Shown piece after piece: positions 1,335-25,102 of a stretch of DNA of 33,858 nucleotides; position 1 is the first letter of the stretch, and every line of letters starts with the position of its first letter. The DNA is from Alphaproteobacteria bacterium (GTDB lineage Bacteria > Pseudomonadota > Alphaproteobacteria > UBA9219), in NCBI GenBank assembly GCA_028708035.1, contig JAQVZU010000012.1:1-33858 (forward strand), written 5' to 3'. The position numbers were made by a program, and so were the translations under genes. The notes beneath the pieces were generated by a model, which was not told the origin of the DNA, searched no databases, and saw nothing but the letters and a program-made list of their open reading frames with translations.

Positions 1335-1358
1335 TTCTCCAGTGAAGACGTATAGAAA

Positions 1359-3422: not shown

Positions 3423-3425
3423 AAT

Positions 3426-10581: not shown

Positions 10582-13500
10582 TGTCGTGTAAGGAGCTGGC
10601 TCAATATATGCATACGCCTTTGCCCAGCAAAGCGTATTAACGAGGCGCATCTGATGGATGTGGTGGCATGGAATTTCAAGCAGTTTTGGATTTGCGTAGA
10701 TGACGGCCAAGCAGCGTGCGCGGCTGATCGCGACGTTTAGGCGGTTCCGGCTGAAAAGGAATTCGATGTCTCTCGGCAAATCTTCTTCTGACGATGTTGC
10801 CATTGAGATGAGGACAACGGCGGCTTCTTGTCCTTGGAACTTATCAACGGTGCCAACTCGTGCGCCGGAGGGCAGGGTGCTCTCCAGTAAATCGACCTGC
10901 ATATTATAGGGCGTCACGACCAAGATGTCGTTTTGGGTTATGGCCTGCTCGACACCTTTTTCATCGCCCCACTTCATGCTCAGAAGGCTTGCGTAGGTTT
11001 GCCGAATACGGTTGGCTTCTTCTTCGCTTTTTTGAGCGCATCCGTCATGTTGAACATCAACAAAGCGCAAACCCGCTGAAATAATAGCCTCAGGGTCGGC
11101 GTTCTTGTTCAGGATAATCTTTTGTCTGGAATTGTTCTGTCCGGGCTTCAAACGACCATCGTAAACGGCATCGGAGATAAACTGACATATTTGTGGGTGC
11201 ATGCGCCTGGTTGTCGAAAGAAAGATGCCTCTGTCTTCCGGCACGGTTGCGGAGTTACCCAATAGGTATTCCAAAGCTGAAAGGCCGGAGTTGCCAGGAT
11301 GCGTTCCTTGGATCGGTTGAGCCAACTGCATTTGATAGCCTACGAGAACAATGTTTTTCGCGCTGCTCCCCATAGCGACAATATTTGCAAGGCTAACTTG
11401 TCCCGCTTCATCGACAAATAGGTAGTCAAGCGTCTGATCGAGTCCTTGCCGCGCAAAAAGCCAGGCCGTCCCGGCAATAAGCTGATAGCCGCCGTTCTCC
11501 ACGTCGTTGTTGTCTGTCGTGTTATTTATCAGGCCAGAGCCTTCAAAAAATTGCTCCTCATTTGAGGATTTTTTGATTCCATTGAAGCGAATATCGCGCA
11601 GAGCCGCCTGTTTCTCGACGGCGAGAAGGAGATTGTTTACGGCCTTATGCGAGTTTGAAGCAATGCCAACCCGTTTACCTCGCTTCAGCAGTTCGACGAT
11701 TGCATGCGACGAGGTAAAAGTTTTCCCTGTTCCTGGGGGGCCTTGTATAAGCATGTGGCTGTTATCAAGACGACAGACTGCATCCACTGCCGAATCCAAT
11801 GGGGCGGCACTGGGGGGTATGATTGCCTCCCCCGCGTTGGTCCCTGCCAATCGAGGATGCTCTTTGCGCAGAATGCTGGTGATTGCGGCATAATGTTCTT
11901 GGCGGCCACCAATGACGGCCTCGGCGTAGCGATAAATGGCATCCCTTAAGACCTGATCGCCAATCGGGCCGTTGGGAATAAGCGATAAGGTGTCGGGCAG
12001 GGGAGTGCGTGTTGGCCCGAGTTTCAGCGCTATAATCCGGTTCTTGTCGTCAAGGGAGATAATCTGTCCTGCCGATTCCAACGTACCGGGCCGCAGAGGA
12101 CTGTCATTAACCCGCATCTTAAAGTCTTGGGCGGGAAAGCGATAAGTGTGAACGACCGATCTCTTTTCCTTATAAGGAGGGCAACCCGGATCGCGGGAAA
12201 GTTTTCCGATGCACTCGGCATCATCGACTAGGCTTTCGTCGGTCATTTCCTGTCGGTTAAACATTGCCCACCATTGCGGTTTGGCTTCTCGGCGATGAAA
12301 CTCCAACAGATGCCCCACCAGCTCCCGCCACGGTTTTTCTTCCTCTGGCCCGCCCTCGCTTAGCTTTGCCACGAACATGGTCGTGCGGGCCTCGGCTTCA
12401 TGCCGGTTATTTTCTTTTTCAAGATCGGAGGCTTCCTTGGCGACTTGTGGCGAAAACCATTGAACTCCCGCCGTTGGGCGCAGAGTTAACAACCAGTCGC
12501 GGCACATCAGAGTGGAACGGCAATCAAACTCGTTATAATCCGAGATTTCCTTGAGGATGGCGTCATCTCGCAACTGACGCCATTTTTCGTACATAACGAT
12601 ACTGTCTCCCGCGTTTGTGACTTCTCCCGCCCGCTTTTCTGCATAGAAGTGTTCCATGTTTTTGATCGAATAACGAGGTTCGGACACGCGCACGGCTTCG
12701 CGGACGACCTTGAAAAGATCAACAAGTTTCCGGCTTCGCAGCAAGTGATCGACCTCGGCCTCGCGTGTGCCGTGATACATAGCCAGGTTTTTGAGCGCCG
12801 TTTCTTCGTAGTTGGCATAGTGATAGATATACGCGTCTGGATACGTCTTTAGCCGATCCATGATGAAGTCCATTACCCCTTCAAAGGTCTTCTTCTCTTG
12901 CTGACGATCATGCGCCCAGAAGGCCCTGAATTCGGGCTTTGATCCCCCGTTTTGCAAGACAAAGCCAAACAGATATTCAAGCCGCATTCTGGGCTCATAT
13001 AGAGGATCGCCTTCCATGTCGAAGAAGAGATCGCCCGCAGTGGGCGGCGGGAGACGCGCAAATCCCTTGTTTGGCAGAAGCGGCAAGACCTCGCAGCGGT
13101 TTTGGCCGTCGTCCCGTTTGGCAATCTGCAATCGCGCCTGCTCCCTTAATCGTGAGAGGGTTTCCAGCTGTAGTTTGGCGGAGAGTGATGGAGACATTTG
13201 CGCCAGCTCGCGCATGCTGTTGACGCCCGCTGCGCGCAGTTTCTTGATTTGATCCCCGGAAATGTTTGCGACAAGGCTTAGATGCTCCTTCTTTTCCCAA
13301 TCCGCTTCGCATCGATCCAACCAACGGCAACGATCACATTTGCCACACGGTTCGCCGGAGGACGGTATCGGCGCGTTGTCCATAAAAGTCTCAAAACGGC
13401 ATGCCGCCAGTTTTTGGAAGTATTTGAACTCGTCAACGCGCAAAGATGTCTTGCTGGAATCTCCAAGGACTATATGCAATTCATGCGGCTGTCGTTGTTG

Positions 13501-13977
13501 CTCGACGGCGAGAAGATCGCAGTAGACACAGAGCTGGATCACGTAATCCGGTTTTGCGGAGAGGGCCAATTTTGTATCGGCGACCTCGTAGCTGTAGCTT
13601 CCAAACTTGGAAGGACGGTTCTCTATGCGCAGAAGGAAATCGGCAAAACCATTCCAGGGGCTCCTGATAAGCGCCGCCTGATAAATAACCTGAGCGCCTT
13701 TTTCCATCGCTGTTTTTGTCTGAGCGACGCGGCTGCTTATTGGAATATCAGAAGGGATTTCTGCGATTGTTAAGCCGCTTTTGCGCAGATGCTCCAAGTA
13801 TGTGCGCTCATGTTGAAGCCCTTTTTCTTTTAATAGTCGATCGCTGTCTTCTCCCGAGGGAAGTTCAACCGGCGCGCACATCTGTTGCAAATCAAAGACG
13901 GTGGCGTATGGGCATCCCAAATAAGTGACAAGATCAGAAGGGGAGAAGAAAGTCTTTCCATTTTCGGCCCTACGCAT
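10525..13977 (-). CDS. TM0106-type RecB-like nuclease fused to UPF1-like SF1 helicase
   Basis: About 1150 residues. The N-terminal part is a RecB/Cas4-like nuclease (SPSDLVTYLGCPYATVFDL, then YEVADTKLAL with the catalytic Asp and Lys). It ends in a cysteine cluster (CGKCDRCRWLDRC) that suggests an iron-sulfur site. A middle RNase H-like exonuclease segment follows (FFDMEGDPLYEPRMRLEYLFGF near 320, YNEFDCRSTLMCRDWL near 500). The C-terminal half is an SF1B helicase: GPPGTGKT (about 745), FVDEAGQ (about 855), VVTPYNMQVDLL, VGTVDKFQGQEA and NRLNVAISRAR. I chose the ATG at 13977 because AAGGAAGGG precedes it; an in-frame extension to 14046 lacks family sequence. It likely processes DNA ends, as a defence or repair factor. 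It could be a stand-alone defence gene, since it opposes the restriction operon. Confidence 0.9.
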   Translation of the reverse strand: MRRAENGKTFFSPSDLVTYLGCPYATVFDLQQMCAPVELPSGEDSDRLLKEKGLQHERTYLEHLRKSGLTIAEIPSDIPISSRVAQTKTAMEKGAQVIYQAALIRSPWNGFADFLLRIENRPSKFGSYSYEVADTKLALSAKPDYVIQLCVYCDLLAVEQQRQPHELHIVLGDSSKTSLRVDEFKYFQKLAACRFETFMDNAPIPSSGEPCGKCDRCRWLDRCEADWEKKEHLSLVANISGDQIKKLRAAGVNSMRELAQMSPSLSAKLQLETLSRLREQARLQIAKRDDGQNRCEVLPLLPNKGFARLPPPTAGDLFFDMEGDPLYEPRMRLEYLFGFVLQNGGSKPEFRAFWAHDRQQEKKTFEGVMDFIMDRLKTYPDAYIYHYANYEETALKNLAMYHGTREAEVDHLLRSRKLVDLFKVVREAVRVSEPRYSIKNMEHFYAEKRAGEVTNAGDSIVMYEKWRQLRDDAILKEISDYNEFDCRSTLMCRDWLLTLRPTAGVQWFSPQVAKEASDLEKENNRHEAEARTTMFVAKLSEGGPEEEKPWRELVGHLLEFHRREAKPQWWAMFNRQEMTDESLVDDAECIGKLSRDPGCPPYKEKRSVVHTYRFPAQDFKMRVNDSPLRPGTLESAGQIISLDDKNRIIALKLGPTRTPLPDTLSLIPNGPIGDQVLRDAIYRYAEAVIGGRQEHYAAITSILRKEHPRLAGTNAGEAIIPPSAAPLDSAVDAVCRLDNSHMLIQGPPGTGKTFTSSHAIVELLKRGKRVGIASNSHKAVNNLLLAVEKQAALRDIRFNGIKKSSNEEQFFEGSGLINNTTDNNDVENGGYQLIAGTAWLFARQGLDQTLDYLFVDEAGQVSLANIVAMGSSAKNIVLVGYQMQLAQPIQGTHPGNSGLSALEYLLGNSATVPEDRGIFLSTTRRMHPQICQFISDAVYDGRLKPGQNNSRQKIILNKNADPEAIISAGLRFVDVQHDGCAQKSEEEANRIRQTYASLLSMKWGDEKGVEQAITQNDILVVTPYNMQVDLLESTLPSGARVGTVDKFQGQEAAVVLISMATSSEEDLPRDIEFLFSRNRLNVAISRARCLAVIYANPKLLEIPCHHIHQMRLVNTLCWAKAYAYIEPAPYTTLNGSQLRDIITESAAVVR

Positions 13978-14026
13978 AGTCGCCCTTCCTTTCGGAGCTT
14001 TGCCAAGGAACCTGTACGAAGGAGCA

Positions 14027-14170
14027 TTATTTATAAACCCACCCAACTAGGAAGCCAATCATCGCGGCAGAAATAGCAACCGCAGCGTAAACTATAACAA
14101 AACCGGCCTTGTCGCTCTCATAGTGACGTTCGCTATCCTGCGGGGCTAAAGCTTCCTTAATAGGTTCCAT
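14027..14170 (-). CDS. Small single-span membrane protein, unknown function
   Basis: A 47-residue protein starting at the ATG at 14170, with AAGG a few bases upstream. A polar N-terminal half is followed by one hydrophobic helix (VIVYAAVAISAAMIGFLVGWVY), giving a predicted inner-membrane anchor with almost no C-terminal tail. A longer form from TTG at 14230 is possible but lacks a clear ribosome binding site. It lies 49 bp before the helicase-nuclease and is probably co-transcribed with it, so it may tether or regulate a defence protein. I do not recognise the family. Confidence 0.5.
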   Translation of the reverse strand: MEPIKEALAPQDSERHYESDKAGFVIVYAAVAISAAMIGFLVGWVYK

Positions 14171-14340: not shown

Positions 14341-14784
14341 CTACTGTTCGATCTTTGGTTTTGCAATCCTTTGTCCAGAAAAGAACATAGCATCGGAACC
14401 GGCGAACCGTTCTGCGGAGAAATATCCATCCCCAACCTTATATTGCACCAGCGCCGCAACCGGGGTTGAGACACCTGCGTCTCCTTCAAATTCTATTTTG
14501 GCGATGCCGCTTTTTGATGCCACTAATTCGGCGCGGGCGGGAACGGCCAAGCGATTAGCCTTAAGCCACAAAATCCATTGTGCCTTGCCCCAACGGACAA
14601 ACCAATAACGCTTAAAAACATCCTTTCTATCTGAACTAAGCGTGTAGCTCGGCCAGCCGAATTTCTTTCCATCGAAACTTTCGAGAGAATACATATCAAT
14701 GCCGACAAGCCTGCCAGTGATCTTCTTTCCCTTAACGGCCACAGAAATCAAATCGTTAAGTTTGAAGTCCTGCGCGTTCGACAT
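14341..14784 (-). CDS. Hypothetical protein, partner of the acyltransferase
   Basis: A 147-residue soluble protein starting at the ATG at 14784, preceded by GAGGCG. The start lies 29 bp inside the end of the acyltransferase gene, so the two are translationally coupled. Visible features are an SH3/Sm-like beta-rich opening (DLISVAVKGKKITGRLVGIDMYSLES), aromatic-rich middle strands (WFVRWGKAQWILWLKAN) and a C-terminal strand region (YKVGDGYFSAERFAGSDAMFF). No catalytic motif or signal peptide is seen. I do not recognise it with confidence; a DUF4178-like fold is a weak possibility. Confidence 0.65.
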   Translation of the reverse strand: MSNAQDFKLNDLISVAVKGKKITGRLVGIDMYSLESFDGKKFGWPSYTLSSDRKDVFKRYWFVRWGKAQWILWLKANRLAVPARAELVASKSGIAKIEFEGDAGVSTPVAALVQYKVGDGYFSAERFAGSDAMFFSGQRIAKPKIEQ

Positions 14785-15892
14785 TTGACGCCTCGTCTGA
14801 AATGATTTTACGGCTCTTTGACCTATTGGCGAGTTTAGAAAATTGCCGATAGCCGCCGTTAATTCTAACATCGACCGAGCATAAGTCGATAGTTATCGCT
14901 GGAGCGAATTTCCTTTTATAAGCGTCCAGATTTTCCGTTTCAGATCCGCCGAGATTAACGTACTCAATGCCCTGATTATGCAAGGTTCCACAGCACTGAA
15001 CCATCGAAAATTCCGAAAGGCCAGGGATTTCAGTGTTACAGAAATTGACATAAACGTTTGCCGTTTTCCGGTGATTATTAGAGACATCCCACAAGCCTAC
15101 GGCCTGTAGTTTGCCGTCAACAAATATCATCTGGCCTGATAGCCCCGAGGACTTATCGATGCCGTGTGAGAACAAGGTTTCATAAGGCGCATACAAAAGC
15201 TCGTATTCGGAGCGGCTGGTCGCATTGTGATTGGTCCAGCGATGAAGGAGGTTCTCTAGTGCGCGGCTGTGGCTAATGGCATCAAAGGGCGCTGTCTCAA
15301 CGAAATGCCTTTTCAGTTGGCGAATATGATTTCTGATTCTCATGAAGTTATGCCCCGATAGTGCGGCCACATGAGAAGTGGACAGAATACGCACGGGGTA
15401 TCTCCAATCGAGGACGTCTTCTTTGCATTTGTTCAAGGAGACATGACGATTATCGAAATACATATCTCTGAGTTCAGCTACGCCAGCCGATTTAGATCTC
15501 GCTATACGGACGCCGCCGGGAGGTTCAGGGATAGAGCTCAACAGGTCGCCAATCAAATCAACTTCCGATTTAACGAGCTGAGGAAAAACTAGAATCTGGC
15601 CCTGAATATTCGGATGCCAGCAGGCCAACACGAAAGCGCCATCCTTTTCATAGGCCCACAAACCGTTCCGCCCGGTGAAGGAATAGTAAATCGGAGAAGT
15701 TAGGTAAGAGTCCGAATCCTCGCATGAAGCGAGTAATTGTCTCAAGCGGGTAAAGTCGTTCTCCGGGATGCGGGAAACGTTAGAAATCAGTTCAAATTTG
15801 CTTTCCCATGCCCGTTGATCGGAGGTGTCGGACAACGCGAAGGCTTTGTTTTCCTGATCGGTGTACGCGATGTCTTTATATGTCGGGGTCAT
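14756..15892 (-). CDS. DUF2156 / GNAT-like acyl- or aminoacyltransferase
   Basis: A 378-residue protein. The C-terminal third resembles the acyltransferase domain of DUF2156 and phosphatidylglycerol lysyltransferase-type proteins: LSGQMIFVDGKLQAVGLWDVS, then YVNFCNTEIPGLSEFSMVQ and EYVNLGGSETENLDAYKRKFAPA, which is the family's typical G-x-S/E...L..YKRKF..P signature. The N-terminal half (SPIYYSFTGRNGLWAYEKDGAFVLACWHPN) looks like a second, degenerate acyltransferase fold, as in other two-lobed members. No membrane segment is present, so it is cytosolic, unlike MprF. The substrate is unknown. Its ATG overlaps the stop of the HTH regulator gene by 4 bp, so the regulator and the enzyme are made from one message. 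Confidence 0.68.
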   Translation of the reverse strand: MTPTYKDIAYTDQENKAFALSDTSDQRAWESKFELISNVSRIPENDFTRLRQLLASCEDSDSYLTSPIYYSFTGRNGLWAYEKDGAFVLACWHPNIQGQILVFPQLVKSEVDLIGDLLSSIPEPPGGVRIARSKSAGVAELRDMYFDNRHVSLNKCKEDVLDWRYPVRILSTSHVAALSGHNFMRIRNHIRQLKRHFVETAPFDAISHSRALENLLHRWTNHNATSRSEYELLYAPYETLFSHGIDKSSGLSGQMIFVDGKLQAVGLWDVSNNHRKTANVYVNFCNTEIPGLSEFSMVQCCGTLHNQGIEYVNLGGSETENLDAYKRKFAPAITIDLCSVDVRINGGYRQFSKLANRSKSRKIISDEASNVERAGLQT

Positions 15893-16554
15893 CTGTTCCC
15901 CTTCTTGTCAGGCGGAATGTTTAGTCTCTCGGCGTGTTGCCAAACAAAATTAAAAAGCCGTCTCGCGCTTTCTGCAAATGCTTCGTCGTGAATGATCGTA
16001 CAGCGCCTAGCGGGTGCCCATGCAACCAAGGCCAATTTAGGCCCATATATATAAAGGGGATATGGATTATGAAATTGGGCGTCTATGCAGCGATAGCTAT
16101 CTTCCGGAACAGTAAGGTGATCGTCTCCCTTACGAATGAGCATGCGCTCTTTAATGTTGGCTTTGTTCAGGCGTTCGATATGAGCATTTAGGAACGTTTC
16201 ATCCACATCTCCTATCGCTCTGCTTTCGTCGACACCGGCGATCAAGACCTCACCGCCAACGACATCCCGAAGCGTATGATAAACATCGTCCAGCAATTTC
16301 CTGTTTGCATCCTCGCCCTCATACGTCTCCACAAGGCGGTCTTTTTTTCTTACTCCCTCGCCAGGAAGAAATTCGATGCCATACATTTCGAGAATGTTGC
16401 GAATTTTGCCAATGGTGGCTTCTCGGTTGGCTCCGGTATTGTTCAAAATGTTGATGAGCGTGTTTTTCGCTATAGCGGCTTCTTTGCAAAGCGCTTCTCT
16501 GGTCAAGCCAGCTAAAGATATAGCTGCTGCTATTTGGGGTCCGGTGAGTTTCAT
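15889..16554 (-). CDS. HTH regulator with C-terminal sensor domain (paralogue A)
   Basis: A 221-residue protein. Residues 1-60 form an XRE-like helix-turn-helix (TGPQIAAAISLAGLTREALCKEAAIAKNTLINIL) ending in the motif GIEFLPGEGV, common in alphaproteobacterial XRE proteins. Residues about 80-215 form an alpha/beta domain (GGEVLIAGVDESRAIG, LYIYGPKLALVAW, CTIIHDEAFAESARRLFNFVW) that resembles a degenerate phospholipase-D/TrmB-like sensor. The same two-part layout occurs in the regulator at 17279-17971. It is the first gene of the minus-strand operon, coupled by ATGA to the acyltransferase. It likely represses its own promoter through the operators at 16660-16701. Confidence 0.8.
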   Translation of the reverse strand: MKLTGPQIAAAISLAGLTREALCKEAAIAKNTLINILNNTGANREATIGKIRNILEMYGIEFLPGEGVRKKDRLVETYEGEDANRKLLDDVYHTLRDVVGGEVLIAGVDESRAIGDVDETFLNAHIERLNKANIKERMLIRKGDDHLTVPEDSYRCIDAQFHNPYPLYIYGPKLALVAWAPARRCTIIHDEAFAESARRLFNFVWQHAERLNIPPDKKGNR

Positions 16555-16659
16555 GGTTAATTTTCCCTCGGGAGATTACCCCCTAGAACTACCGTACAAA
16601 ACTTTCAGCCCAATTAAAAGGGACTTTTTGTTTCGGTAATATTATTTCGTTTTTCATTC

Positions 16660-16701
16660 ACCTACCTCTTTTTGGTAATAACCTACCTTGAATTGGTAAC
16701 A
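16660..16701. promoter_or_regulatory. Tandem 21-bp operator repeats with TACC-N7-GGTA dyads
   Basis: Two back-to-back 21-bp units (16660-16680 and 16681-16701) share 16 of 21 bases: ACCTACCT at the left and TTGGTAA at the right. Each contains the inverted repeat TACC-N7-GGTA. A third half-site, CGGTAAT, lies at 16634-16640. The 21-bp period is two helical turns, so dimers would sit on one DNA face. The site is in the divergent region between two transcription units, both linked to HTH regulators. Confidence 0.75.
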
Positions 16702-16739
16702 AAATAGAACGAAAGGCCCAATGCGCTTGTGCTTTTCGT

Positions 16740-16767
16740 TTTACTTGCGCCAATTGCCGGGTATTAT
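16740..16767 (+). promoter_or_regulatory. Candidate sigma-70 promoter for the plus-strand genes
   Basis: A -35-like TTTACT (16740-16745) and a -10-like TATTAT (16762-16767) are separated by 16 bp, about 35 bp before the ATG at 16803. It lies just downstream of the operator repeats, so bound regulators could affect it. Sequence match only. Confidence 0.45.
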
Positions 16768-16802
16768 TCTTGCATAGAGCAAAACAAAATTTGGAGTAAA
16801 AA

Positions 16803-17036
16803 ATGTTAACGAACGAAAATTTTACTTTCAAGGATATGGCAGCTCGGTTTGGCGAAATTATCGCCTACTCCTATTTGCATGAGATCGAACGCGCCGCAGG
16901 CCTGGTCCCCACACTCATGATCGGCATCGAGCCTGAACTTCGGCTTACGAGCGCCTTCCGCATACAGGACGCAAAGCGGAAGACTCCGGCCAAAGAACAG
17001 CAGACAGATAATAACACCATGCTGGAGGCAGCTTAA
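16803..17036 (+). CDS. Small hypothetical protein
   Basis: A 77-residue protein with a clear ribosome binding site (GGAG, 6 bp before the ATG). The first half is helical (FKDMAARFGEIIAYSYLHEIERAAG), the tail is polar and lysine-rich, and no membrane segment or known motif is present. It is the first plus-strand gene after the divergent operator region, and its stop is one base before the next ATG. I do not recognise it. Confidence 0.62.
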   Translation: MLTNENFTFKDMAARFGEIIAYSYLHEIERAAGLVPTLMIGIEPELRLTSAFRIQDAKRKTPAKEQQTDNNTMLEAA

Positions 17037-17037
17037 A

Positions 17038-17265
17038 ATGATTTCCACATCGTTACAAAGCGACGATCCCTTAACGCGAGAAGAGCTGACCTCGATTACA
17101 GCGATAATCGAATACTTGGCGTTCAAAAAGGGCAGCCACATCGAAAACACGTACTGCCACTTGGCGACCGAATTCAAAGTGCCGGACGTGAAGCAAATCA
17201 AGCGCTGCGATTACGACCGCGCGGTTAAATATTTGGTTGATTTGGATGAGCTTGAAGTAAATTAG
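17038..17265 (+). CDS. Small hypothetical protein, possibly ORF6C/antirepressor-tail-like
   Basis: A 75-residue protein with GGAGG about 9 bp before the ATG, inside the end of the previous gene. The layout LTREELTSITAIIEYLAFKKGSH...LATEFKVPDVKQIKRCDYDRAVKYLVDL resembles the C-terminal segment of phage antirepressors and BRO-like proteins, where a polar helix is followed by Y/F-D-x-A-v-x-x-L. This link is weak. It sits between a hypothetical gene and the HTH regulator B, 13 bp from the latter, in one operon. Confidence 0.6.
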   Translation: MISTSLQSDDPLTREELTSITAIIEYLAFKKGSHIENTYCHLATEFKVPDVKQIKRCDYDRAVKYLVDLDELEVN

Positions 17266-17278
17266 GAGAACCCGTGCC

Positions 17279-17971
17279 ATGCTAATGATTACCGGATCGC
17301 AAATCAGGGGAGCTAGGGGACTGTTAAACTGGTCTCAGGATAACCTGGCCGAAATCTCTAAAGTCTCGCGGCGGACTGTCCAGCTTATCGAAAGCGACTT
17401 TCCTGCGCGGAGCAGCAACCTTCGTAAGATACACCAAACCCTGACCGATCATGGCATTGAGTTCTTACAGGGCGCCGGTATCAAGCTACGCTCAAAAGGC
17501 TTCCACGATTTTATTGGTGCGGAAAGTTGCGACGATTTCTTTGATTATGCTCAGAGAACGATTAGCGACCGGGGTGGGGACCTGGTCTGCATGATTTCTG
17601 AGATGGACATGCTGACAAAAACCTGCTGCTCCTCAGGCCTCACGAATATTCAACGCCTTGAGCAGATACAGAAAACCGCCAGCGTTAAATGCCTTATCGA
17701 CGAGGCTCTTAAGCCAGCCTTCCCGCCGCCATCCTTTGAGGTTCGGGTATTTCCGGACGAACCTACCATTATCCCAATATCCGTCTTTGTCTTCGGCAAC
17801 CAATGGGTCGGCGGGTTTCAGGACGACGATAAAACGAATTTCACATTTGTCGTGTTTAACAAAGCTCGCTTGGCGAATAAAACCCAAGACTATTTTCTGC
17901 CGCGCTGGCATGAAGCCAAGGCATTGCCGACGGAAGTGAAAATGAAAAGAATATCGAGGCAAAAATCGTGA
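17279..17971 (+). CDS. HTH regulator with C-terminal sensor domain (paralogue B)
   Basis: A 230-residue protein with AGGAG 10 bp before the start. Residues 3-65 are a classic XRE helix-turn-helix (ITGSQIRGARGLLNWSQDNLAEISKVSRRTVQLIES) ending in GIEFLQGAGIKL, matching paralogue A (GIEFLPGEGV). The C-terminal domain (GGDLVCMISEMDMLTK, IPISVFVFGNQWVGGF, FTFVVFNKARLANKTQDYF) follows the same strand order as paralogue A's, but with little residue identity. The pair probably binds related operators and forms a two-regulator switch across the divergent region. Four short repeats follow its stop and could be a further binding array. Confidence 0.8.
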   Translation: MLMITGSQIRGARGLLNWSQDNLAEISKVSRRTVQLIESDFPARSSNLRKIHQTLTDHGIEFLQGAGIKLRSKGFHDFIGAESCDDFFDYAQRTISDRGGDLVCMISEMDMLTKTCCSSGLTNIQRLEQIQKTASVKCLIDEALKPAFPPPSFEVRVFPDEPTIIPISVFVFGNQWVGGFQDDDKTNFTFVVFNKARLANKTQDYFLPRWHEAKALPTEVKMKRISRQKS

Positions 17972-18054
17972 GCGAAAAGCGCAGACAATTTAGCAAAACG
18001 CGCAGCTGAAAATTTTCGGAGCAGAAAGCGCCGTCTCGTTACGCAAAACGCGCA
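17972..18054. repeat. Four 12-bp degenerate repeats, helically spaced
   Basis: Copies start at 17972, 17993, 18021 and 18043: GCGAAAAGCGCA, GCAAAACGCGCA, GCAGAAAGCGCC, GCAAAACGCGCA. Spacings of 21, 28 and 22 bp are close to two or nearly three helical turns. The first begins within the last codon of the regulator gene. The array lies just before the small-protein operon starting at 18120, so it is a candidate binding array or promoter element. Confidence 0.6.
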
Positions 18055-18119
18055 AATATTCATGTTGTCGGACGAGAAAAAATAATGACATTTAGAAAAT
18101 ACGAAAGGAGCGGGCGAAC

Positions 18120-18362
18120 ATGGAAGCGGTGGGGGAGATGATCTCTAGTCAGCACGCCCAGCGGGGAGCTTTTCAGACGGAACGACCCCTTCATCACCTG
18201 GCTGCACGCATCGCCAACGAGATCATTGACTGCCTTTGCAAAAAAGGAACGTGGAAAATTGAGGATTTGAGAGCTGCTAACTTTTCATATGCGGAAATTG
18301 GGCGTCATTTGCCGGAGGCCTGTCGGATCGCGGAACAACGGCCTCGTCCATTGCTGCGGTAG
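18120..18362 (+). CDS. Small protein of a three-copy family (copy 1)
   Basis: An 80-residue protein with a strong ribosome binding site (AAAGGAG, 9 bp before the ATG). The core reads AARIANEIIDCLCKKGTWKIEDLRAANFSYAEIGRHLPEA. The same pattern (x-A-x-x-I-I-x4-KKG-x3-x-DL-x3-x-F-x3-E) occurs in the genes at 18368 and 19153. The C-terminus is shorter and arginine-rich compared with the other two, and could be frame-damaged. Function unknown. It opens the long coupled operon that ends with the five-enzyme cluster. Confidence 0.6.
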   Translation: MEAVGEMISSQHAQRGAFQTERPLHHLAARIANEIIDCLCKKGTWKIEDLRAANFSYAEIGRHLPEACRIAEQRPRPLLR

Positions 18363-18367
18363 ACATA

Positions 18368-18628
18368 ATGGAACAGGGAGTGACGCCCAATTTAGTCGTT
18401 ATCGACCTGATTTCGGATAACGAAGCTCTCAAATTTGAAGTCGCCGACCGACTGGCAAAGGCCATCATCGAACTCCGGAGAAAGGACGGAGGATGTATGC
18501 CTCAGGACCTAAACGAAAAAGGATTTACGGTGTCAGAGGTGGTCGAAAATTGGGATGCGGCTCATTTTCTAATTGCGATCACTGACATGACAGAATGGGG
18601 CAAAGACGATGGAAAACGTAAAACATGA
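18368..18628 (+). CDS. Small protein of a three-copy family (copy 2)
   Basis: An 86-residue protein starting 5 bp after the previous stop. It contains VIDLI near the N-terminus and the core AKAIIELRRKDGGCMPQDLNEKGFTVSEV, which aligns without gaps to the core of the gene at 19153 (AGAIISVSLKKGCCEPQDLLPLGFTQKET). Conserved positions are the A-I-I helix, a Gly-Cys turn, P-Q-D-L and G-F-T-x-x-E. This layout suggests a small helical domain, perhaps a winged or FlhD-like fold, but I do not recognise it. No clear ribosome binding site, so it probably depends on translational coupling. Confidence 0.62.
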   Translation: MEQGVTPNLVVIDLISDNEALKFEVADRLAKAIIELRRKDGGCMPQDLNEKGFTVSEVVENWDAAHFLIAITDMTEWGKDDGKRKT

Positions 18629-18722
18629 AAAAACGCAGCGGCCTCTCGGCAATATCCTGAACTGGGGCATACACCCAATCCATCCTTGGGAAGCACAACA
18701 CCACTTGGAGAATTCCAAATGA
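18609..18722 (+). CDS. 37-codon candidate microprotein linking two genes
   Basis: An ATG at 18609, about 6 bp after TGGGGC, opens a 37-residue frame starting MENVKHEKTQRPLG and rich in His, Trp and Pro. It overlaps the end of copy 2 by 20 bp and ends with TGA at 18720-18722, overlapping the next ATG in an ATGA arrangement. This chain of overlaps bridges what would otherwise be a 90-bp gap. It could be a real small protein or only a translational coupler. Confidence 0.45.
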   Translation: MENVKHEKTQRPLGNILNWGIHPIHPWEAQHHLENSK

Positions 18723-19156
18723 TGCAAGTTGCCATGCAACAGCGCCTCTGCGTCATGTTGGCTTTCCAAACCATGATCGCCAGTGGCAAGAAAACGAATG
18801 CGCCGGGTGTAGCAACGTTGATCATTAAACTCGCACAACATATGAATGAATTCTGCAATCGGTACGTTCGGGAAGCTTTTCCTCCGGGCACAATGAATTT
18901 CGTTGATGACAAAGGGGCGGCAAAGCTAGACGAGGCCATAGACCAACATATCCGGGAGCTAAAGACAAAAGAGCAAACGCATCTCCCCGAAGACAGGGAG
19001 ACGCTGATCCAACTCTACGACCGCCTCCAACAGCGCAAATCACGCCGGATGCAGTGGGAATTCTATGCCACGGCCAAGGAGGACAAACTCGCCGATCTGA
19101 TCCTTAAATACCTTGATGAAGAAATCGAAGACATCGAGGGAGGGGCGCGTCAATGA
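18719..19156 (+). CDS. Hypothetical helical protein
   Basis: A 145-residue protein. I place the start at 18719 because GGAG lies at 18707-18710 and the ATG overlaps the microprotein stop; an upstream in-frame start at 18686 has no comparable signal. The protein is mostly helical and charged (LCVMLAFQTMIASGKK, RETLIQLYDRLQQRKSRR, LADLILKYLDEEIEDIEGG), with a possible coiled coil in the C-terminal half. No membrane segment or catalytic motif is seen, and I do not recognise the family. Its stop overlaps the next start by 4 bp. Confidence 0.62.
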   Translation: MMQVAMQQRLCVMLAFQTMIASGKKTNAPGVATLIIKLAQHMNEFCNRYVREAFPPGTMNFVDDKGAAKLDEAIDQHIRELKTKEQTHLPEDRETLIQLYDRLQQRKSRRMQWEFYATAKEDKLADLILKYLDEEIEDIEGGARQ

Positions 19157-19440
19157 TGTCCTCTCCACAGGCAAACCTTGTCCCGCATGTAATCGACCTT
19201 ATCGGGGTCAGTTTCGATAAGAAGTTCGCGTCGCACCAACGCATGGCGGGTGCCATTATCAGTGTAAGCCTTAAAAAGGGTTGTTGCGAACCTCAAGACC
19301 TCCTGCCTTTGGGATTTACGCAAAAGGAGACCTCGGGAATGTGGCATATGGCGCAAGCGATGGCCAATGTTGAACTCAAGCTAATAAAGAGTACCGCCTG
19401 TCAAGGATACGAAAGGGAAAAGGAACATGCCGCCATCTAA
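19153..19440 (+). CDS. Small protein of a three-copy family (copy 3)
   Basis: A 95-residue protein with a very strong ribosome binding site (GAGGGAGGGG) and an ATGA overlap with the preceding gene. It shares VIDLI, the A-x-A-I-I helix, a GC turn, PQDL and GFTxxE with copy 2, and a looser version with copy 1. A short lysine/glutamate tail follows. The three copies flank other small genes rather than lying side by side, so they may form a mixed complex. Function unknown. Confidence 0.62.
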   Translation: MMSSPQANLVPHVIDLIGVSFDKKFASHQRMAGAIISVSLKKGCCEPQDLLPLGFTQKETSGMWHMAQAMANVELKLIKSTACQGYEREKEHAAI

Positions 19441-19792
19441 GAAATCCAACAAGGCGGCCAAGAGCATAGATTTTTGTTCGCTCCCGCTGACCAGTTCAAA
19501 TTTCGGAAGCCAATCCGAAATCGATGCCGAGGTTGGAACGCCCCCACAGTGGAAAACGATAGCTACTGTTTATTCCGCCGCCGATGTGGATGCGGAGGAT
19601 ATTGCGAATCAGATTATGCTTGCGATGAGCGGTCGCCCCAAAATGCAGGCGGCTCTGGATACCGCACTAACATGTCTGGAGGCGTGTAGAGATTGCGAAC
19701 GCCTTGATGCCAAAATCAAAGCGAACATCAAAGGGGCTGTCGAAAGCATCCAAGAAATAACCGACGAATATGGAAGCAGGAGAGCGAGATGA
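19427..19792 (+). CDS. Hypothetical protein with four cysteines
   Basis: A 121-residue protein with AAAAGGAAC just before the ATG. It overlaps copy 3 by 14 bp, and its stop overlaps the SDR start by 4 bp. The N-terminus is basic and disordered-looking. The C-terminal half is helical with a short cysteine stretch (TCLEACRDCERLDAKIK: C-x3-C-x2-C) that could bind a metal or a cluster. No homology that I recognise. Its position directly before the enzymes makes it a possible carrier or precursor protein, but no leader-core pattern is evident. Confidence 0.6.
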   Translation: MPPSKKSNKAAKSIDFCSLPLTSSNFGSQSEIDAEVGTPPQWKTIATVYSAADVDAEDIANQIMLAMSGRPKMQAALDTALTCLEACRDCERLDAKIKANIKGAVESIQEITDEYGSRRAR

Positions 19793-20754
19793 GCGACGAG
19801 AGCAGAAAGAATATTCTTCTTATCGGTGGATCGGTCTTCGTCGGGAAGACAATCGCTGAATATCTTCTTCGGGAAGGAAGCCAAGTCACTCTTTTGAACA
19901 GAGGGACGCACCCGATTTCGGGAACCCGGCAGCTCATAGCCGACCGAAACGTACCGGAGGAGGTGCAACGGGCGGCCTTGGGCGCGGATGCGCATTACGA
20001 TGCGATCATAGATACCTCGGCTTTTAACGGAGAACAGACGCGGATCGCTTGGGAGGCTCTTTCGTCCAAGACAGACCACTGGCTTCATCTGAGCAGCGCC
20101 TCAGTTTATAGCGATGCAAACGACAATCTTCCAAACGAACAAGCGGCGATAGGCGGAGCTGATGTTTGGGGAAGCTATGGTCGGGACAAAAGCGCCTGCG
20201 ACTCCTTTTTGCAGGCACAAACAAGTGGGCCTGCGGTAACAATTTTCCGCCCGCCCTACATTTACGGGCCGGGAAACAATCACGACCGAGAGACGTTCAT
20301 TTGGAGCCGCGCCTTACGCGGACGCCCCGTGCTTATCCCCAGCGGAGGGAAAACGCAGATCCAATTCGTTCATGCGAAAGACTTGGCTGCCGCGTTTGTC
20401 CGCGCCCTTGGTCGGGACTTCAAGCATAAGGTTGCTGTCTACAATATCGGCACAAGCGAGAGATTCTCGCTTCGGGAGTGGGTTTCGGGCTTGTGCGCTA
20501 TCGCCAAGGCCAAGGATATCGGCGTTTGCGTTGGGCAGAACGCCTCGAAATACAGCCCTCGCCAGTATTTTCCATTTCGCGATTTTCAGTGCGTTGTTGA
20601 TGTAACCCGGATTGGGGCCGAACTCGGATGGAAGCCCACATTTGGTTTCACTCTTGGTTTTGAAAACACGCTGGCAGCCTATGATCTCGATTTTCTAAAA
20701 GCCAAGCCAATCGAGACAGCCATAGAGGACGAAATACTGAAACTGATTTCGTAG
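19789..20754 (+). CDS. NAD(P)-dependent epimerase/dehydratase (extended/atypical SDR)
   Basis: A 321-residue Rossmann enzyme. The dinucleotide loop is LLIGGSVFVGKTIAEYLL (about 10-27), of the GG-x-x-F-x-G type seen in CSP41-like atypical SDRs. The catalytic set is the Ser of LHLSSASVYS and the pair Y130-x3-K134 (SYGRDKSACD). After these come the typical FRPPYIYGPGNNHDR and VHAKDLAAAFVRAL segments. It probably acts on a nucleotide-sugar or a related polyol/keto substrate. It is coupled to the gene before (ATGA, with AGGAG just upstream) and lies 26 bp before the radical SAM gene. It is the first of five consecutive enzyme genes, and its sequence looks intact. Confidence 0.88.
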   Translation: MSDESRKNILLIGGSVFVGKTIAEYLLREGSQVTLLNRGTHPISGTRQLIADRNVPEEVQRAALGADAHYDAIIDTSAFNGEQTRIAWEALSSKTDHWLHLSSASVYSDANDNLPNEQAAIGGADVWGSYGRDKSACDSFLQAQTSGPAVTIFRPPYIYGPGNNHDRETFIWSRALRGRPVLIPSGGKTQIQFVHAKDLAAAFVRALGRDFKHKVAVYNIGTSERFSLREWVSGLCAIAKAKDIGVCVGQNASKYSPRQYFPFRDFQCVVDVTRIGAELGWKPTFGFTLGFENTLAAYDLDFLKAKPIETAIEDEILKLIS

Positions 20755-20780
20755 CAAAAGTATTTTGAAAAGGAGCAAAG

Positions 20781-21695
20781 ATGTTTGACCCCGTAGACGG
20801 TTTAAATACGGGACTGGAAGAACTCGCGTCCAGTGTTCTCCAGTCCGCCTATTCCGGCAGCATTTCGCTGCGGCCCAAATTACGCGAGCAGCTCAATGCG
20901 CGCGGCGAAAAGCAAGCAATTTTGGCTCGGACCGCGCGAGATACACGGGAAAAGACCGGCGACAACTATTTGGTCGTTCGCGCAAGCATCGAGTTTTCAA
21001 ATTATTGCCGTCAAATATGCTCATACTGCGGAATGGCGGCGACGAATAGCACGCTTCAGCGCTATCGACTGAATTCAAGCCAAATGTGCAAAATTATCCA
21101 AGAGGTTTCATCCCTCGGCGTGACCGACCTTCACCTAGCCTCGGGAGAAGACCGCTCTTTCAAGGCTGTCGAGCTTGTTCCCGTTATTGCCGAAGCCGTT
21201 TCGGCGGGAATGGAAGTCACGCTTGTTAATGGACAACGAAGCATTGGCGACTATGCGCTGTGGAAGGATGCCGGGGCAAGCCGTTATATCCTGAAGGTCG
21301 AGACAACCAATCCAGAGGTGTTTAAGGATGCAAAGCCGGGTGCAGACCTAACTCAACGAGTGTCGCACCTGCTTTATCTGAGAGAACTAGGCTTCAAGAT
21401 CGGCAGCGGAGTAATTTCGGGGTTGCCGGGTCAAACGGTCGATGATCTTGTCGGCGATCTCATATTCCTAAAAGAGCTGAAGCCCGACATGAACAGCGTG
21501 AGCCGGTTCTTGCCGAATTCACAAAGCCGTTATGCAAATGCTTCAGAAGGCGACCCGGATACCGCGCTCAACTTCCTTTCTCTGTTGCGGATTGAAATGT
21601 CCAGACCGGGCCTCCGGATTCCCGCCGGAACGTCCTTGGGACGCAGGCAAATCGACGCTTTCGATCATGGAGCCAATGTCGTCTCTTGCACATGA
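20781..21695 (+). CDS. Radical SAM enzyme, BioB/HydE/PylB-like, C-terminus split off by a frameshift
   Basis: A 304-residue radical SAM protein with AAGGAG before the start. The [4Fe-4S] motif is NYCRQICSYCGM (C76, C80, C83: C-x3-C-x2-C). It then shows the usual barrel segments: LGVTDLHLASGEDRS, ILKVETTNPEVFKDAKPG, IGSGVISGLPGQT and RIPAGTSLGRRQIDAFDHGANVV. Overall layout matches the biotin synthase/HydE/PylB group. These enzymes normally continue past GANVV with a short region of the form (M)TPx-x-Y-x-x-LY. Here that sequence is present, but in the -1 frame (21692-21817), after a TGA at 21693-21695. The enzyme core is intact but the last strand/helix would be missing unless the frame is restored. 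The reaction is unknown. Confidence 0.85.
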   Translation: MFDPVDGLNTGLEELASSVLQSAYSGSISLRPKLREQLNARGEKQAILARTARDTREKTGDNYLVVRASIEFSNYCRQICSYCGMAATNSTLQRYRLNSSQMCKIIQEVSSLGVTDLHLASGEDRSFKAVELVPVIAEAVSAGMEVTLVNGQRSIGDYALWKDAGASRYILKVETTNPEVFKDAKPGADLTQRVSHLLYLRELGFKIGSGVISGLPGQTVDDLVGDLIFLKELKPDMNSVSRFLPNSQSRYANASEGDPDTALNFLSLLRIEMSRPGLRIPAGTSLGRRQIDAFDHGANVVSCT

Positions 21696-21817
21696 CCCCA
21701 AACGAATATGCGGACCTCTATTCGAGCTACCGCGCGGAAAACCGGATTTCGACCAAGATGGAAAAGATCAAAAACTTTGCACGCGAGACCGGAATGCCAT
21801 TACGGCTGAATTTGTGA
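21692..21817 (+). pseudogene. Displaced C-terminal end of the radical SAM enzyme
   Basis: A 41-codon frame begins at an ATG overlapping the preceding stop (ATGA at 21692-21695) and starts MTPNEYADLYSSYRAENRI. This is what follows GANVV in HydE/PylB-type proteins. Joining it needs a -1 shift (re-reading the A at 21692), equal to one missing base. Options are a sequencing or assembly indel, a true frameshift mutation, a programmed -1 shift, or stop-start re-initiation giving a two-chain protein. Confidence 0.75.
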
Positions 21818-21841
21818 CGAAGTTTATATTTGGCAAAGCTT

Positions 21842-22801
21842 ATGAGCAAATTTAGTGAACCCATATTTGCGAACGGATTGGAAAAAATCGCCTCATCCTT
21901 CGACGCGTTTATCATCGACCAGTGGGGCGTCATTCACGATGGTAAACACGTTTTCCCCGGCGTCGTCGATGCCCTGGAGCACATCACTGCGCTTGGAAAG
22001 CCTGCAATCATTGTCACGAATTCCGCGAAGCGCAACGCCTATAACATGAGGCGGCTGGCAAGCCTCGGTATTCCGCGTGAGATATATACCGACCTGGTGA
22101 GCTCAGCCGAAGTCATGCGCGGTTTGCTTGTCGAGCGGCAATGCGCGCCTTGGGATTCCCTTGGAGAGAAAGCATTTCTTGTAGCCAATGAGGAGGATCG
22201 CGGCTTCCTTCAGGGGACGGAGTACCAAGCGGTTCGAGACGTGGGGCAAGCGGATTTCGTGCTGTTGCTGAGCACGAAGAAGGAAACGCCGCTCTCGGCG
22301 CATGAATCGTGGATCAATATTGCGGTAGAACGAAAGCTTCCGGTTTTCAGTGCGAGCGCCGATCCTTTGACTTTCGGCCCCGAAGGCATTTTCTCCGGCT
22401 CTGCGGGCATCATCAAAATAATCGAAGAAAAAGGCCATACCGTCATTAACACCGGCAAGCCGAGCGAGCTGGTTTATAAGCGTTGCTCTCAACTTATTCC
22501 CGGCATCAAACCGGAAAAGGTTCTCGCCATCGGCGATCAGATAGCAACCGATATTATCGGCGCGAAGCGTTTCGGATTCAGCGCTGCGCTCATTATGAGC
22601 GGCGCGAGCGAACGGATATTTGAAAATGCTGGTTCGCCGGAAGATGCCATACGGATAGCAAAGTCTTTGGCTTCACCCGAGTTGCTGCCGGACATAATTT
22701 TGCTCGGCTTGAGATGGGACGGGAACGAGACCTCCGCCCCTTTCCGCCGGACGGCGTCATTACATCACGGACAGGCAAACAACGAAAAATTAGAGCAATA
22801 A
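21842..22801 (+). CDS. HAD-IIA family hydrolase (TIGR01459 type)
   Basis: A 319-residue HAD hydrolase of the alphaproteobacterial TIGR01459 group, related to NagD-like sugar phosphatases. Motif I is DAFIIDQWGVIHDGKHVFPG, with the nucleophile Asp, and Trp rather than a second Asp two positions later. Motif II is IIVTNSAKRNA. The motif III/IV region is NTGKPSELVYKR...VLAIGDQIATDIIGAKRFGFSAALI. All HAD catalytic positions appear present. The ATG at 21842 starts MSKFSEP; a TTG at 21830 in the same frame is possible, and neither has a strong ribosome binding site. Lying 24 bp after the split radical SAM end, it probably removes phosphate from a pathway intermediate. Confidence 0.87.
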   Translation: MSKFSEPIFANGLEKIASSFDAFIIDQWGVIHDGKHVFPGVVDALEHITALGKPAIIVTNSAKRNAYNMRRLASLGIPREIYTDLVSSAEVMRGLLVERQCAPWDSLGEKAFLVANEEDRGFLQGTEYQAVRDVGQADFVLLLSTKKETPLSAHESWINIAVERKLPVFSASADPLTFGPEGIFSGSAGIIKIIEEKGHTVINTGKPSELVYKRCSQLIPGIKPEKVLAIGDQIATDIIGAKRFGFSAALIMSGASERIFENAGSPEDAIRIAKSLASPELLPDIILLGLRWDGNETSAPFRRTASLHHGQANNEKLEQ

Positions 22802-22827
22802 ATTGAAGTCAAATTTGCGAGGTTATT

Positions 22828-24009
22828 ATGAGCTTTGACATACTGGTTCTTCATTCCGATCGTTCGACAGGCATGAATTTTGTCCAGTGCCTTCAAGAAG
22901 CAAAGAGGCAGGGCTGGGGTAAAGACATCAACATCATCGGCCTCAGTTCCCACCCGTTGAGGATGCAGCTATGCAAAAACGACGCTACTTATCTTTTCGA
23001 TGAGGACGATACAGACATTGTAAAGCACGTAGGGCGCATCGAAAAAGACATCGGGAAGCCGATTGATCTTGTCTATGAGACCAAAAGCGCAGTGTACATG
23101 CTGGATATTTCGAAGCTGCGCAACAGGCTGCCGGTTTTTCTGCCTCCCCATGAGCTGGTTGAGGTTTTTGAAGACAAATTTCTAACGTACAAACATCTTT
23201 CCGAGAGAGGACTTCCGGTCCCTGAAACCCATCTCGTAAACTCGCCCGAAGATGTCGAAGCCGCGTTCCGCAGCATAGCCAAGAATGCGGTTTGGGTGCG
23301 AGAGACCAAAGGGCAGGCGGGGCTTGGCGCGTTTAGCGCTTCAACGCCGAAGGAAGTGATCGGAGAATTAACCCAAAGAAATGGGTGGCGGCACCATACG
23401 GTTGCCGAAAAATTGCCCATTAATACCCCGAACACCTGGGAAGACCAGTTGTCTTCGGATTTTTTCCCCGGAGAGATGGTCACATGGGCTGCCTTGTACA
23501 ACAACGGGCAGCTAATCGGGAGTCAGGTCCGAAAGCGCCTTTATTGGGAACACGCGGATCTGACTGTATCCGGCGTAACGGGATATTCTGGCGCGAACAT
23601 GACGGTATCCCGCAGGGACGTACATGACCTTTCGGACAAAATTGTGCGGTCGTTTGATTGGAAGCCGCATGGCGCAGTCGGGATAGATTACGTCGCCGAC
23701 GAAAACGGCAAAATCAAGCTGACCGAAATCCAAGCCAGCCGCTTTTACACTTCGACATACCCATTGGCGCTCTTGGGGCTGAATTTACCGAAGCTATACA
23801 TAGACGTTTTTCGCGGAAAAGAAACTTGCAATGACGCAATAAATCCTTGTCCGGAAGGGATGATCTACATCCAGCGTTTTGGCGCGGAAAGCGTCATGAT
23901 TCACCGTGACACAATTCTTTCTGAACTTTCCAGCGGAACGTCGCGGCCCAAGTTTGCGGCCGGAAGTTTGGGAAACAGCTCGCATGGTCCGCTCAAGCAT
24001 GAATTTTAA
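22828..24009 (+). CDS. ATP-grasp ligase
   Basis: A 393-residue ATP-grasp enzyme of the CarB-like, carboxylate-amine ligase superfamily. The N-terminal pre-ATP-grasp domain opens with DILVLHSDRSTGMNF. The ATP-grasp region includes FEDKFLTYKHLSERGLPVPET (the classic entry Lys), VWVRETKGQAGLGAF (glycine-rich loop) and AVGIDYVADENGKIKLTEIQASRF (metal-binding acidic positions, usually E-x-N-x-R; here E-I-Q-A-S-R). It should activate a carboxylate with ATP and join it to an amine or other nucleophile. GAGG lies 6 bp before the start. The aminotransferase start signal (GGGAG) directly follows its stop codon. Confidence 0.87.
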   Translation: MSFDILVLHSDRSTGMNFVQCLQEAKRQGWGKDINIIGLSSHPLRMQLCKNDATYLFDEDDTDIVKHVGRIEKDIGKPIDLVYETKSAVYMLDISKLRNRLPVFLPPHELVEVFEDKFLTYKHLSERGLPVPETHLVNSPEDVEAAFRSIAKNAVWVRETKGQAGLGAFSASTPKEVIGELTQRNGWRHHTVAEKLPINTPNTWEDQLSSDFFPGEMVTWAALYNNGQLIGSQVRKRLYWEHADLTVSGVTGYSGANMTVSRRDVHDLSDKIVRSFDWKPHGAVGIDYVADENGKIKLTEIQASRFYTSTYPLALLGLNLPKLYIDVFRGKETCNDAINPCPEGMIYIQRFGAESVMIHRDTILSELSSGTSRPKFAAGSLGNSSHGPLKHEF

Positions 24010-24073
24010 GGGAGATATTATAATGAACTAGGTTATTGATTTATCCAGAAACGAGTTTCTTTAAGAACATCCG
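24010..24073 (+). other. Original aminotransferase start region interrupted by TAG and TAA
   Basis: GGGAG at 24010-24014 lies 8 bp before an ATG at 24023. Reading on in the aminotransferase frame gives M-N-stop-VIDLSRNEFL-stop-EHP and then the known protein. The stops are TAG (24029-24031) and TAA (24062-24064). The peptide between them is a typical aminotransferase N-terminus (IDLS-x-NE). Each stop is one C-to-T change from a glutamine codon (CAG, CAA). Confidence 0.8.
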
Positions 24074-25102
24074 GTGCTGCGCGACTACGCGTTTCCAAAA
24101 CTAACCGCTCGCGAGATATGCCAGTACCCGGCTGGCTCGGAGCTGATGCAAAAGCTTTCGGCTTTTCATCAGGTCGATCCCGAAAATCTTTGCCTTTGCA
24201 ACGGGGCAGAACAGGCATTGAAAGTCGCTATCGGAGCAGTGTCGAACATGAAGGACGCGACATTATTGATGCCCAGCCCCACATGGGAACACTATTGGAA
24301 GCTTGCAACAGCATTCGGAGTTCGCACAGTCCCTTATCATTATGAAGAGACAAAAAATGGGTTGTTTGAGCTAAACATGCACTGCCTTGAAGATAAGATC
24401 GACAAGGCCAAACGCGTTGTCCTGCTCATTGCATCGCCGTCGAACCCATTGGGATGCCGGACGGACGATAAAACAATCCACAAAATGGTCGAAATGGCTG
24501 CGGAGAAAGGCTACTCCATTATAGATCAAACGTATGCGGGCTTTTCGGGCGGCGAAGAGGAAACATTGGCATCGTGTCTGAACACACTTCCGAAAGCGCT
24601 TATAACGCGGTCCCTTTCCAAATACTACGGCATGGCCGGACTGAGAGTTGGCTTCGTCGCGGCAACACCAGAAACACAAAAAGCGTTTTCGATATTCGGC
24701 GATTACCTCGGATTTAATTCCTTTGCGGATAAATTTGCCGCCGAATGCCTGGATCGTCATATCGAGTTCGAGGAGATTGCCAACAAAACCGTTCAGGGAC
24801 GGGAGCGTCTTAGTAGTTATTATTCCTCTTTGTTAGGGTTTATGCCCTTTAAGTCGGCAACAAACTTTTTGCTAGTTCGCGTTCCTGAAGGATATGCGGA
24901 ACATTTGTCGAGAAACGGCATCAAGGTGCGCACGTTTTCCGACGAGACTATAGGTGATTGCGTGCGGATCACCATTCCTCCTAAAACGATCATTGAGCGC
25001 ATTGAGAATTTGACGGACATTTTCTGTTCGAGTGTCGAGATCAAGCCGCAGACACCTCGAAATGCCTCCCGAAGAATAAACGTAATCGGCTACAGTTCTT
25101 GA
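24074..25102 (+). CDS. PLP-dependent class I/II aminotransferase (HisC-like), N-terminus interrupted
   Basis: Fold-type I aminotransferase, about 342 residues from the GTG at 24074. Catalytic features are all present: SPSNPLG (Asn of the PLP site), IIDQTYAGF (Asp that pairs with the PLP nitrogen), SLSKYYGMAGLRVGF (Schiff-base Lys, residue 183 in this numbering) and VRITIPP (carboxylate-binding Arg). It resembles histidinol-phosphate aminotransferase. The natural start is more likely the ATG at 24023, which has a good ribosome binding site, but two in-frame stops separate it from this part. The GTG at 24074 has no convincing ribosome binding site. The product is therefore either a shortened protein, absent, or made by readthrough. 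It is the last enzyme of the five-gene cluster. Confidence 0.82.
   Translation: MLRDYAFPKLTAREICQYPAGSELMQKLSAFHQVDPENLCLCNGAEQALKVAIGAVSNMKDATLLMPSPTWEHYWKLATAFGVRTVPYHYEETKNGLFELNMHCLEDKIDKAKRVVLLIASPSNPLGCRTDDKTIHKMVEMAAEKGYSIIDQTYAGFSGGEEETLASCLNTLPKALITRSLSKYYGMAGLRVGFVAATPETQKAFSIFGDYLGFNSFADKFAAECLDRHIEFEEIANKTVQGRERLSSYYSSLLGFMPFKSATNFLLVRVPEGYAEHLSRNGIKVRTFSDETIGDCVRITIPPKTIIERIENLTDIFCSSVEIKPQTPRNASRRINVIGYSS

Follow-up and report, generated by a model that had tools for sequence, protein, structure and literature searches.

The subject of this analysis is a run of five enzyme genes at positions 19789–25102 of a 33,858-nucleotide stretch of DNA (the window: contig JAQVZU010000012.1 of assembly GCA_028708035.1, Alphaproteobacteria bacterium of lineage UBA9219, positions 1 to 33,858, forward strand). 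On balance, we favour the view that this cluster is a small-molecule cassette at the 3′ end of an XRE-regulated operon (17038–25102) within a two-sided locus. Our best reading is that the cassette forms the variable end, now partly decayed, of a regulated locus for an amino-acid-derived metabolite, located on a mobile island. A homologous cassette, joined to a homologous regulator module, is present in a second genus.

An earlier note on this DNA, made from its letters alone, had named five consecutive plus-strand genes with short gaps at 19789–25102, and profile matches bear out these family assignments. The SDR, radical SAM, HAD and aminotransferase proteins score solidly and the ATP-grasp protein weakly: it hits nothing but general ATP-grasp models, with scores under their cut-offs, and its structure model is too poor for use (predicted local distance difference test score, pLDDT, of 42). 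The HAD protein exceeds the cut-off of the HAD-IIA family, and the aminotransferase falls short of that of HisC (TIGR01141, 160.8 bits versus 276.55). The note's picture of a self-contained five-enzyme set did not survive: the enzyme run continues unbroken upstream to 17038, giving a larger unit, and the homologous set in the second genus has seven enzymes. The plus-strand run comprises a small protein (d110), an XRE regulator, five further small proteins and the enzymes, with a largest gap of 148 bp. The small genes at 18120–19792 share the strand of the enzymes with gaps no larger than this, and the last of them, of the w121 family, overlaps the SDR start through the sequence ATGA (19789–19792). 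On the other side of the locus, XRE2 overlaps the start of a transferase gene by 4 bp. The features of the locus are:

14756–15892, minus strand: LPG_synthase_C-like transferase (GNAT-fold, MprF/FemX-type), partner of XRE2 (PF09924, E=6.4e-10)
15889–16554, minus strand: XRE2 regulator with TrmB/PLD-like C-terminal domain (by alignment; family present in 32/32 genomes searched within the order)
17038–17265, plus strand: small protein d110, opening the plus-strand operon (recognised by an iterated hidden Markov model, 85 bits)
17279–17971, plus strand: XRE1 regulator, helix-turn-helix (HTH) plus TrmB/PLD-like domain (AlphaFold2 model, Foldseek and VIA-align matches)
18120–18362, plus strand: small protein, w86 family
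18368–18628, plus strand: small protein, w86 family (54% identity to its counterpart in the other genus)
18686–19156, plus strand: small protein, w156 family
19153–19440, plus strand: small protein, w86 family
19427–19792, plus strand: small protein, w121 family, stop overlapping the SDR start
19789–20754, plus strand: SDR, NAD-dependent epimerase/dehydratase family (PF01370, E=6.5e-20)
20781–21818, plus strand: HydE-like radical SAM enzyme (PF04055, E=3.1e-13; TIGR03956), reading frame stopping early at 21695
21842–22801, plus strand: HAD-IIA phosphatase (TIGR01459, 142 bits, cut-off 103.75)
22828–24009, plus strand: ATP-grasp protein, divergent from known families (PF14397 at 24.5 bits and PF02655, both below cut-off)
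24023–25102, plus strand: HisC-like class I/II aminotransferase dependent on pyridoxal phosphate (PLP) (PF00155, E=3.3e-39), open frame only from GTG 24074

A homologous cassette in a second genus

The second genome with the cassette, G015, is a metagenome-assembled genome from the same family as the window genome but from a different genus. Its gene run encodes an SDR, a radical SAM enzyme, a guanylate-kinase-like/nucleotidyltransferase fusion, an ATP-grasp protein, an APH/choline-kinase-like kinase, an aminotransferase and a HAD protein. Identity between the window and G015 proteins is 50% for the SDR, 72% for the radical SAM enzyme, 69% for the ATP-grasp protein, 55% for the aminotransferase and 30% for the HAD protein, with the SDR and radical SAM homologues in locus L012 and those of the HAD and ATP-grasp proteins in L002. 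Homology extends to the small genes upstream and to the two regulators (28–54% identity), and the order XRE1, w156/w86, w121, SDR, radical SAM is common to the two genomes. The window has neither the fusion protein nor the APH-like kinase, and its HAD gene occupies a different position. At the level of gene content and predicted proteins, this comparison shows that module and cassette together have a common ancestry in the two genera, and with such an orthologous run elsewhere the grouping of the genes goes beyond chance. The note had proposed that recurrence of the set in unrelated genomes would support a single pathway; the set does recur, but in only one other genome, of the same family, and there with seven enzymes.

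Searches with the ATP-grasp protein (190 relatives, 33 genomes from the host's order and 299 from the phylum) or the radical SAM enzyme (385 genomes from the class and 398 from the phylum), covering about 1,000 other genomes, found no third copy of the cassette. A counterpart of the fusion protein is likewise missing from the 32 genomes searched within the order, among them the window genome. Viral contigs gave no cassette match. Among plasmid records, the ATP-grasp protein had no match, the radical SAM enzyme retrieved nothing beyond ordinary HydE/BioB-like proteins, and the aminotransferase had a single match at 24%. Comparison with PHROGs returned generic families only. Two surface-polysaccharide clusters (L013 and L014) hold distant relatives of the ATP-grasp protein but no other cassette gene and were set aside, and an Acetobacteraceae match (L003) lies in a region of unrelated genes and looks like a chance match. 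The earlier note knew of no described pathway with this set, and the family libraries and literature searched gave no described counterpart. Neither the cassette nor the XRE modules were found described in the open literature searched, which leaves out most subscription papers.

The window genome contains a second module (L075), which is 83–85% identical over window positions 14341–19813 and has no enzymes. The match extends some 24 bp into the SDR gene before it stops, so that the common ancestor of the two modules had an SDR gene at this place. L075 lies beside genes for conjugation (TrbE, CagX/TrbG-type, TrbI and TrbL). The window itself also holds an MZA defence operon, a RovC-type regulator and a ParB-like gene, and is consistent, from this gene content, with a mobile or variable island. 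The defence genes lie at 99–10581, where a C5 methyltransferase is followed by a complete MzaABCDE-type anti-phage operon (PADLOC MzaA–E), whose MzaA-like protein has an ankyrin repeat; a 1173-residue protein combining RNase_H_2 and AAA helicase domains (10525–14046, minus strand) ends beside the operon.

This context invites two other explanations. The enzymes could be an independent natural-product cluster that lies next to the regulator module as mere cargo and is functionally unconnected with it, since the module occurs without enzymes in the second copy and in another genome (G001) and the island carries unrelated cargo such as the MZA operon. We consider this rather unlikely given the ATGA overlap between the w121 and SDR genes, the same junction in two genera and the SDR remnant beside the second module. 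A role for the cassette within a defence island, through an antiviral or other defensive metabolite, is more improbable still: the MZA operon and its methyltransferase would fit such a role, but neither of the two cluster proteins scanned with PADLOC, the ATP-grasp protein and the kinase/nucleotidyltransferase fusion, gave a match, the sister cassettes described below are metabolic, and the G015 contigs, which had no PADLOC scan, yielded no recognised defence neighbour.

Returning to a cassette tied to its regulator module, the window copy appears damaged. The radical SAM reading frame ends at 21695 by a frameshift, and similarity to the intact homologue runs on in another frame to about 21814–21818; the following HAD gene most likely starts at ATG 21842 rather than TTG 21830. 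The aminotransferase resembles residue 1 onwards of its intact homologue from ATG 24023, which has a strong Shine-Dalgarno sequence upstream. That frame reads ATG-AAC-TAG, with a stop at codon 3 and a second (TAA) at codon 14, leaving GTG 24074 as the sole in-frame start. Since three lesions come together with two missing enzymes, decay is suggested, and the window cassette is probably a decaying remnant.

The radical SAM enzyme

The radical SAM enzyme has its closest solved structures, and its best family match, in HydE. It shares with HydE a radical SAM core with the CxxxCxxC motif (CRQICSYC) and full-length similarity at about 30–36% identity. It nevertheless differs in scoring below the HydE cut-off (TIGR03956, 178.7 bits for the truncated window protein and 191.9 for the intact homologue, versus 254.6), in lying away from HydG and HydF, and in its substrate-site motifs. 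The motifs LQ(S/G/A)GE and IPATTA, which lie around the substrate site of HydE, are present in the genome's own HydE and replaced by LASGE and IPAGTS in the window enzyme, which differs here from the HydE proteins compared. In a tree the window protein sits on a long branch, a placement that is unsure for that reason. The genome's own HydE gene lies next to HydG on contig C20 (L033, 6536–9124) and HydF scores above its cut-off on contig C13 (3032–4216), so that the organism probably makes an [FeFe] hydrogenase. That the cassette enzyme is itself the HydE of hydrogenase maturation is largely refuted by these observations and very improbable. Two other HydE-like radical SAM genes without recognised hydrogenase genes lie beside FAD and AMP-ligase-like genes (L040, 7153–8175) and, in Bradyrhizobium, beside amino-acid transporter genes (L011, 5972–7093).

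The earlier note had also been reminded of pyrrolysine biosynthesis (PylBCD), which likewise combines a radical SAM enzyme of the BioB/HydE/PylB group with an ATP-grasp and a Rossmann enzyme, and PylB is indeed the second-best family for the radical SAM protein. The likeness goes no further: PylB scores are 99.9 bits (window) and 106.5 (intact homologue) versus a cut-off of 348.2, and the cassette adds an aminotransferase, a HAD protein, a kinase and a nucleotidyltransferase. The note itself had seen no pylS or tRNA-Pyl and no clear PylC in the ATP-grasp protein, and the best PylS match in the window genome (96% complete) is 22.8 bits versus a cut-off of 178, no tRNA was found in the window, and the ATP-grasp protein does not match PylC. 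A pyrrolysine-like pathway is refuted at the level of family membership, and we give it next to no weight.

Regulators, partner enzymes and sister loci

XRE1 and XRE2 are divergently oriented members of one family, which we found in all 32 genomes of the host's order that were searched, with up to 39 matches in a single genome; about ten such genes lie within 8.6 kb (L084, 8–8587) of G023, where the total reaches at least 39. Among 142 genomes sampled across the class, matches outside the order are mostly confined to the HTH, and long ones occur in a few other families. The AlphaFold2 model of XRE1 (73 sequences, pLDDT 91.9) comprises an HTH and a second domain. In Foldseek and VIA-align comparisons of this predicted model, residues 72–221 match Nuc (Z 14.4), TrmBL2 (13.3) and TrmB (11.6), and the HKD motif (HxKx4D) is missing in 72 of 73 family members. 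Because of this likeness to TrmB, we infer that the second domain has a binding rather than a catalytic role.

Enzymes encoded directly downstream of XRE genes include EgtD-like methyltransferases, GNAT proteins, LPG_synthase_C-like (LPGc) transferases, formyltransferases, others, and cyclodipeptide synthases (CDPSs), the last assigned from a Pfam match below cut-off (22.8 bits) and sequence resemblance. Among the loci fetched, d110 lies within 1.5 kb of 33 of 43 XRE groups, and 36 of 42 partner-class genes directly follow an XRE gene, a count that is partly circular, the partner classes having been defined partly from neighbours seen in these loci. For that reason, independent evidence comes from other families of the class, outside the order, where five of seven XRE genes are directly followed by a CDPS, MT33 or LPGc gene. 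The transferase of the window has a 77% identical copy beside the genome's second module, and the same XRE–LPGc pairing occurs in other families. Assignments made from a single seed by hidden Markov model (LuxR, NUDIX and LPGc) are rough. An Agrobacterium Ti plasmid carries a 32% identical relative of the transferase, next to a phosphoribosyltransferase gene and a purE-like gene (L145, 7977–8966).

In other genomes, different enzyme sets lie downstream of the w156/w86/w121 small proteins, with some members recognised by eye:

L087: radical SAM protein, two dCTP-deaminase-like proteins (by eye), AlaRS-like protein
L092: class II aminoacyl-tRNA synthetase (aaRS)-like proteins, methyltransferase (by eye), LD-carboxypeptidase
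L085: class V aminotransferase, HAD protein (by eye), phosphodiesterase
L086: argininosuccinate synthase, DDAH
L088: D-Ala-D-Ala dipeptidase, methyltransferase (by eye), PLP decarboxylase (DAP-decarboxylase-type), aminotransferase

The class II aaRS-like proteins behind these modules are stand-alone (L092, 11530–14855; L087, 3761–4846). A cassette behind an XRE module is common and not universal. Across the order, many such loci pair the sensor-like regulator with enzymes of amino-acid or aminoacyl-tRNA type, whose products are probably small molecules derived from amino acids.

Proposed function and comparison with known systems

In the arrangement we propose, the divergent regulators would define two sides, XRE2 with the LPG_synthase_C-like transferase and XRE1 with the small proteins and enzymes, and 17038–25102 would be co-transcribed. 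The second domain of the XRE proteins may bind a small molecule, probably the locus product or a precursor, and so control the operon. The enzymes would build a modified amino-acid-derived compound via a phosphorylated intermediate: in the intact version, the APH-like kinase would phosphorylate, the HisC-like aminotransferase aminate, the HAD protein dephosphorylate, the SDR carry out a redox step or epimerisation, the HydE paralogue perform a radical step and the ATP-grasp protein form an amide, perhaps with activation by the kinase/nucleotidyltransferase fusion. We infer both the amino-acid origin and product sensing from context. The earlier suggestion of an amino-acid-derived product remains plausible in the light of the PLP enzyme, the ATP-grasp protein, the aminoacyl-transferase-like enzyme in the locus and the amino-acid enzymes of the sister loci.

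Several points weigh against this interpretation. The aminotransferase and SDR belong to generic families, so that 'amino-acid-derived' rests on context, and ligand, product and expression are all putative. The cassette occurs in two genomes only, one of which, G015, has an estimated contamination of 9% and carries its cluster on two contigs joined by an identical end of about 92 bp. The HAD protein, 30% identical and elsewhere in the cassette, may be a separate acquisition, and, with a single assembly as the source of the frameshift and the stops, these could be sequencing errors. Finally, many XRE loci have no enzyme cassette, and some have housekeeping genes or nothing recognisable downstream.

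A broader proposal is possible, which we put forward tentatively and as doubtful. XRE/TrmB-like regulators and their adjoining enzymes (CDPS, LPG-synthase-like transferase, EgtD-like methyltransferase, GNAT, formyltransferase) could form an undescribed family of regulator–synthase modules that both produce and detect signals derived from amino acids, with as many as tens in one genome; the HydE-like cassette would then be one elaboration, using HydE-type radical chemistry outside hydrogenase maturation. If so, a whole order of small-genome alphaproteobacteria would carry many copies of an unrecognised regulator–synthase locus, its amino-acid-derived products would be directly searchable through the seven-enzyme version and the two-gene XRE–CDPS pairs, and the HydE paralogue would gain a substrate outside hydrogenase assembly.

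Three known systems provide comparisons. The archaeal regulators TrmB and TrmBL2 share the predicted C-terminal fold of XRE1 (Z 11.5–13.3), lacking the phospholipase motif, whereas XRE1 is bacterial and has an XRE-type DNA-binding domain. MprF/VlmA-like GNAT enzymes and CDPSs are described as makers of amino-acid metabolites that use aminoacyl-tRNA (PMC2922099). The clusters covered there resemble ours in their aminoacyl-tRNA-type transferases and in aaRS paralogues beside amino-acid modifying enzymes, and differ in their regulators and enzyme sets, with no HydE-like enzyme in the passages covered (PMC2922099). Lastly, the XRE modules recall LuxR/LuxI pairs, compared here from genes alone: the synthases are not LuxI and the putative sensor is an XRE protein with a TrmB/PLD-like domain instead of LuxR, but in both systems the gene for a ligand-sensor-like regulator directly adjoins that of a small-molecule enzyme, in many variable copies.

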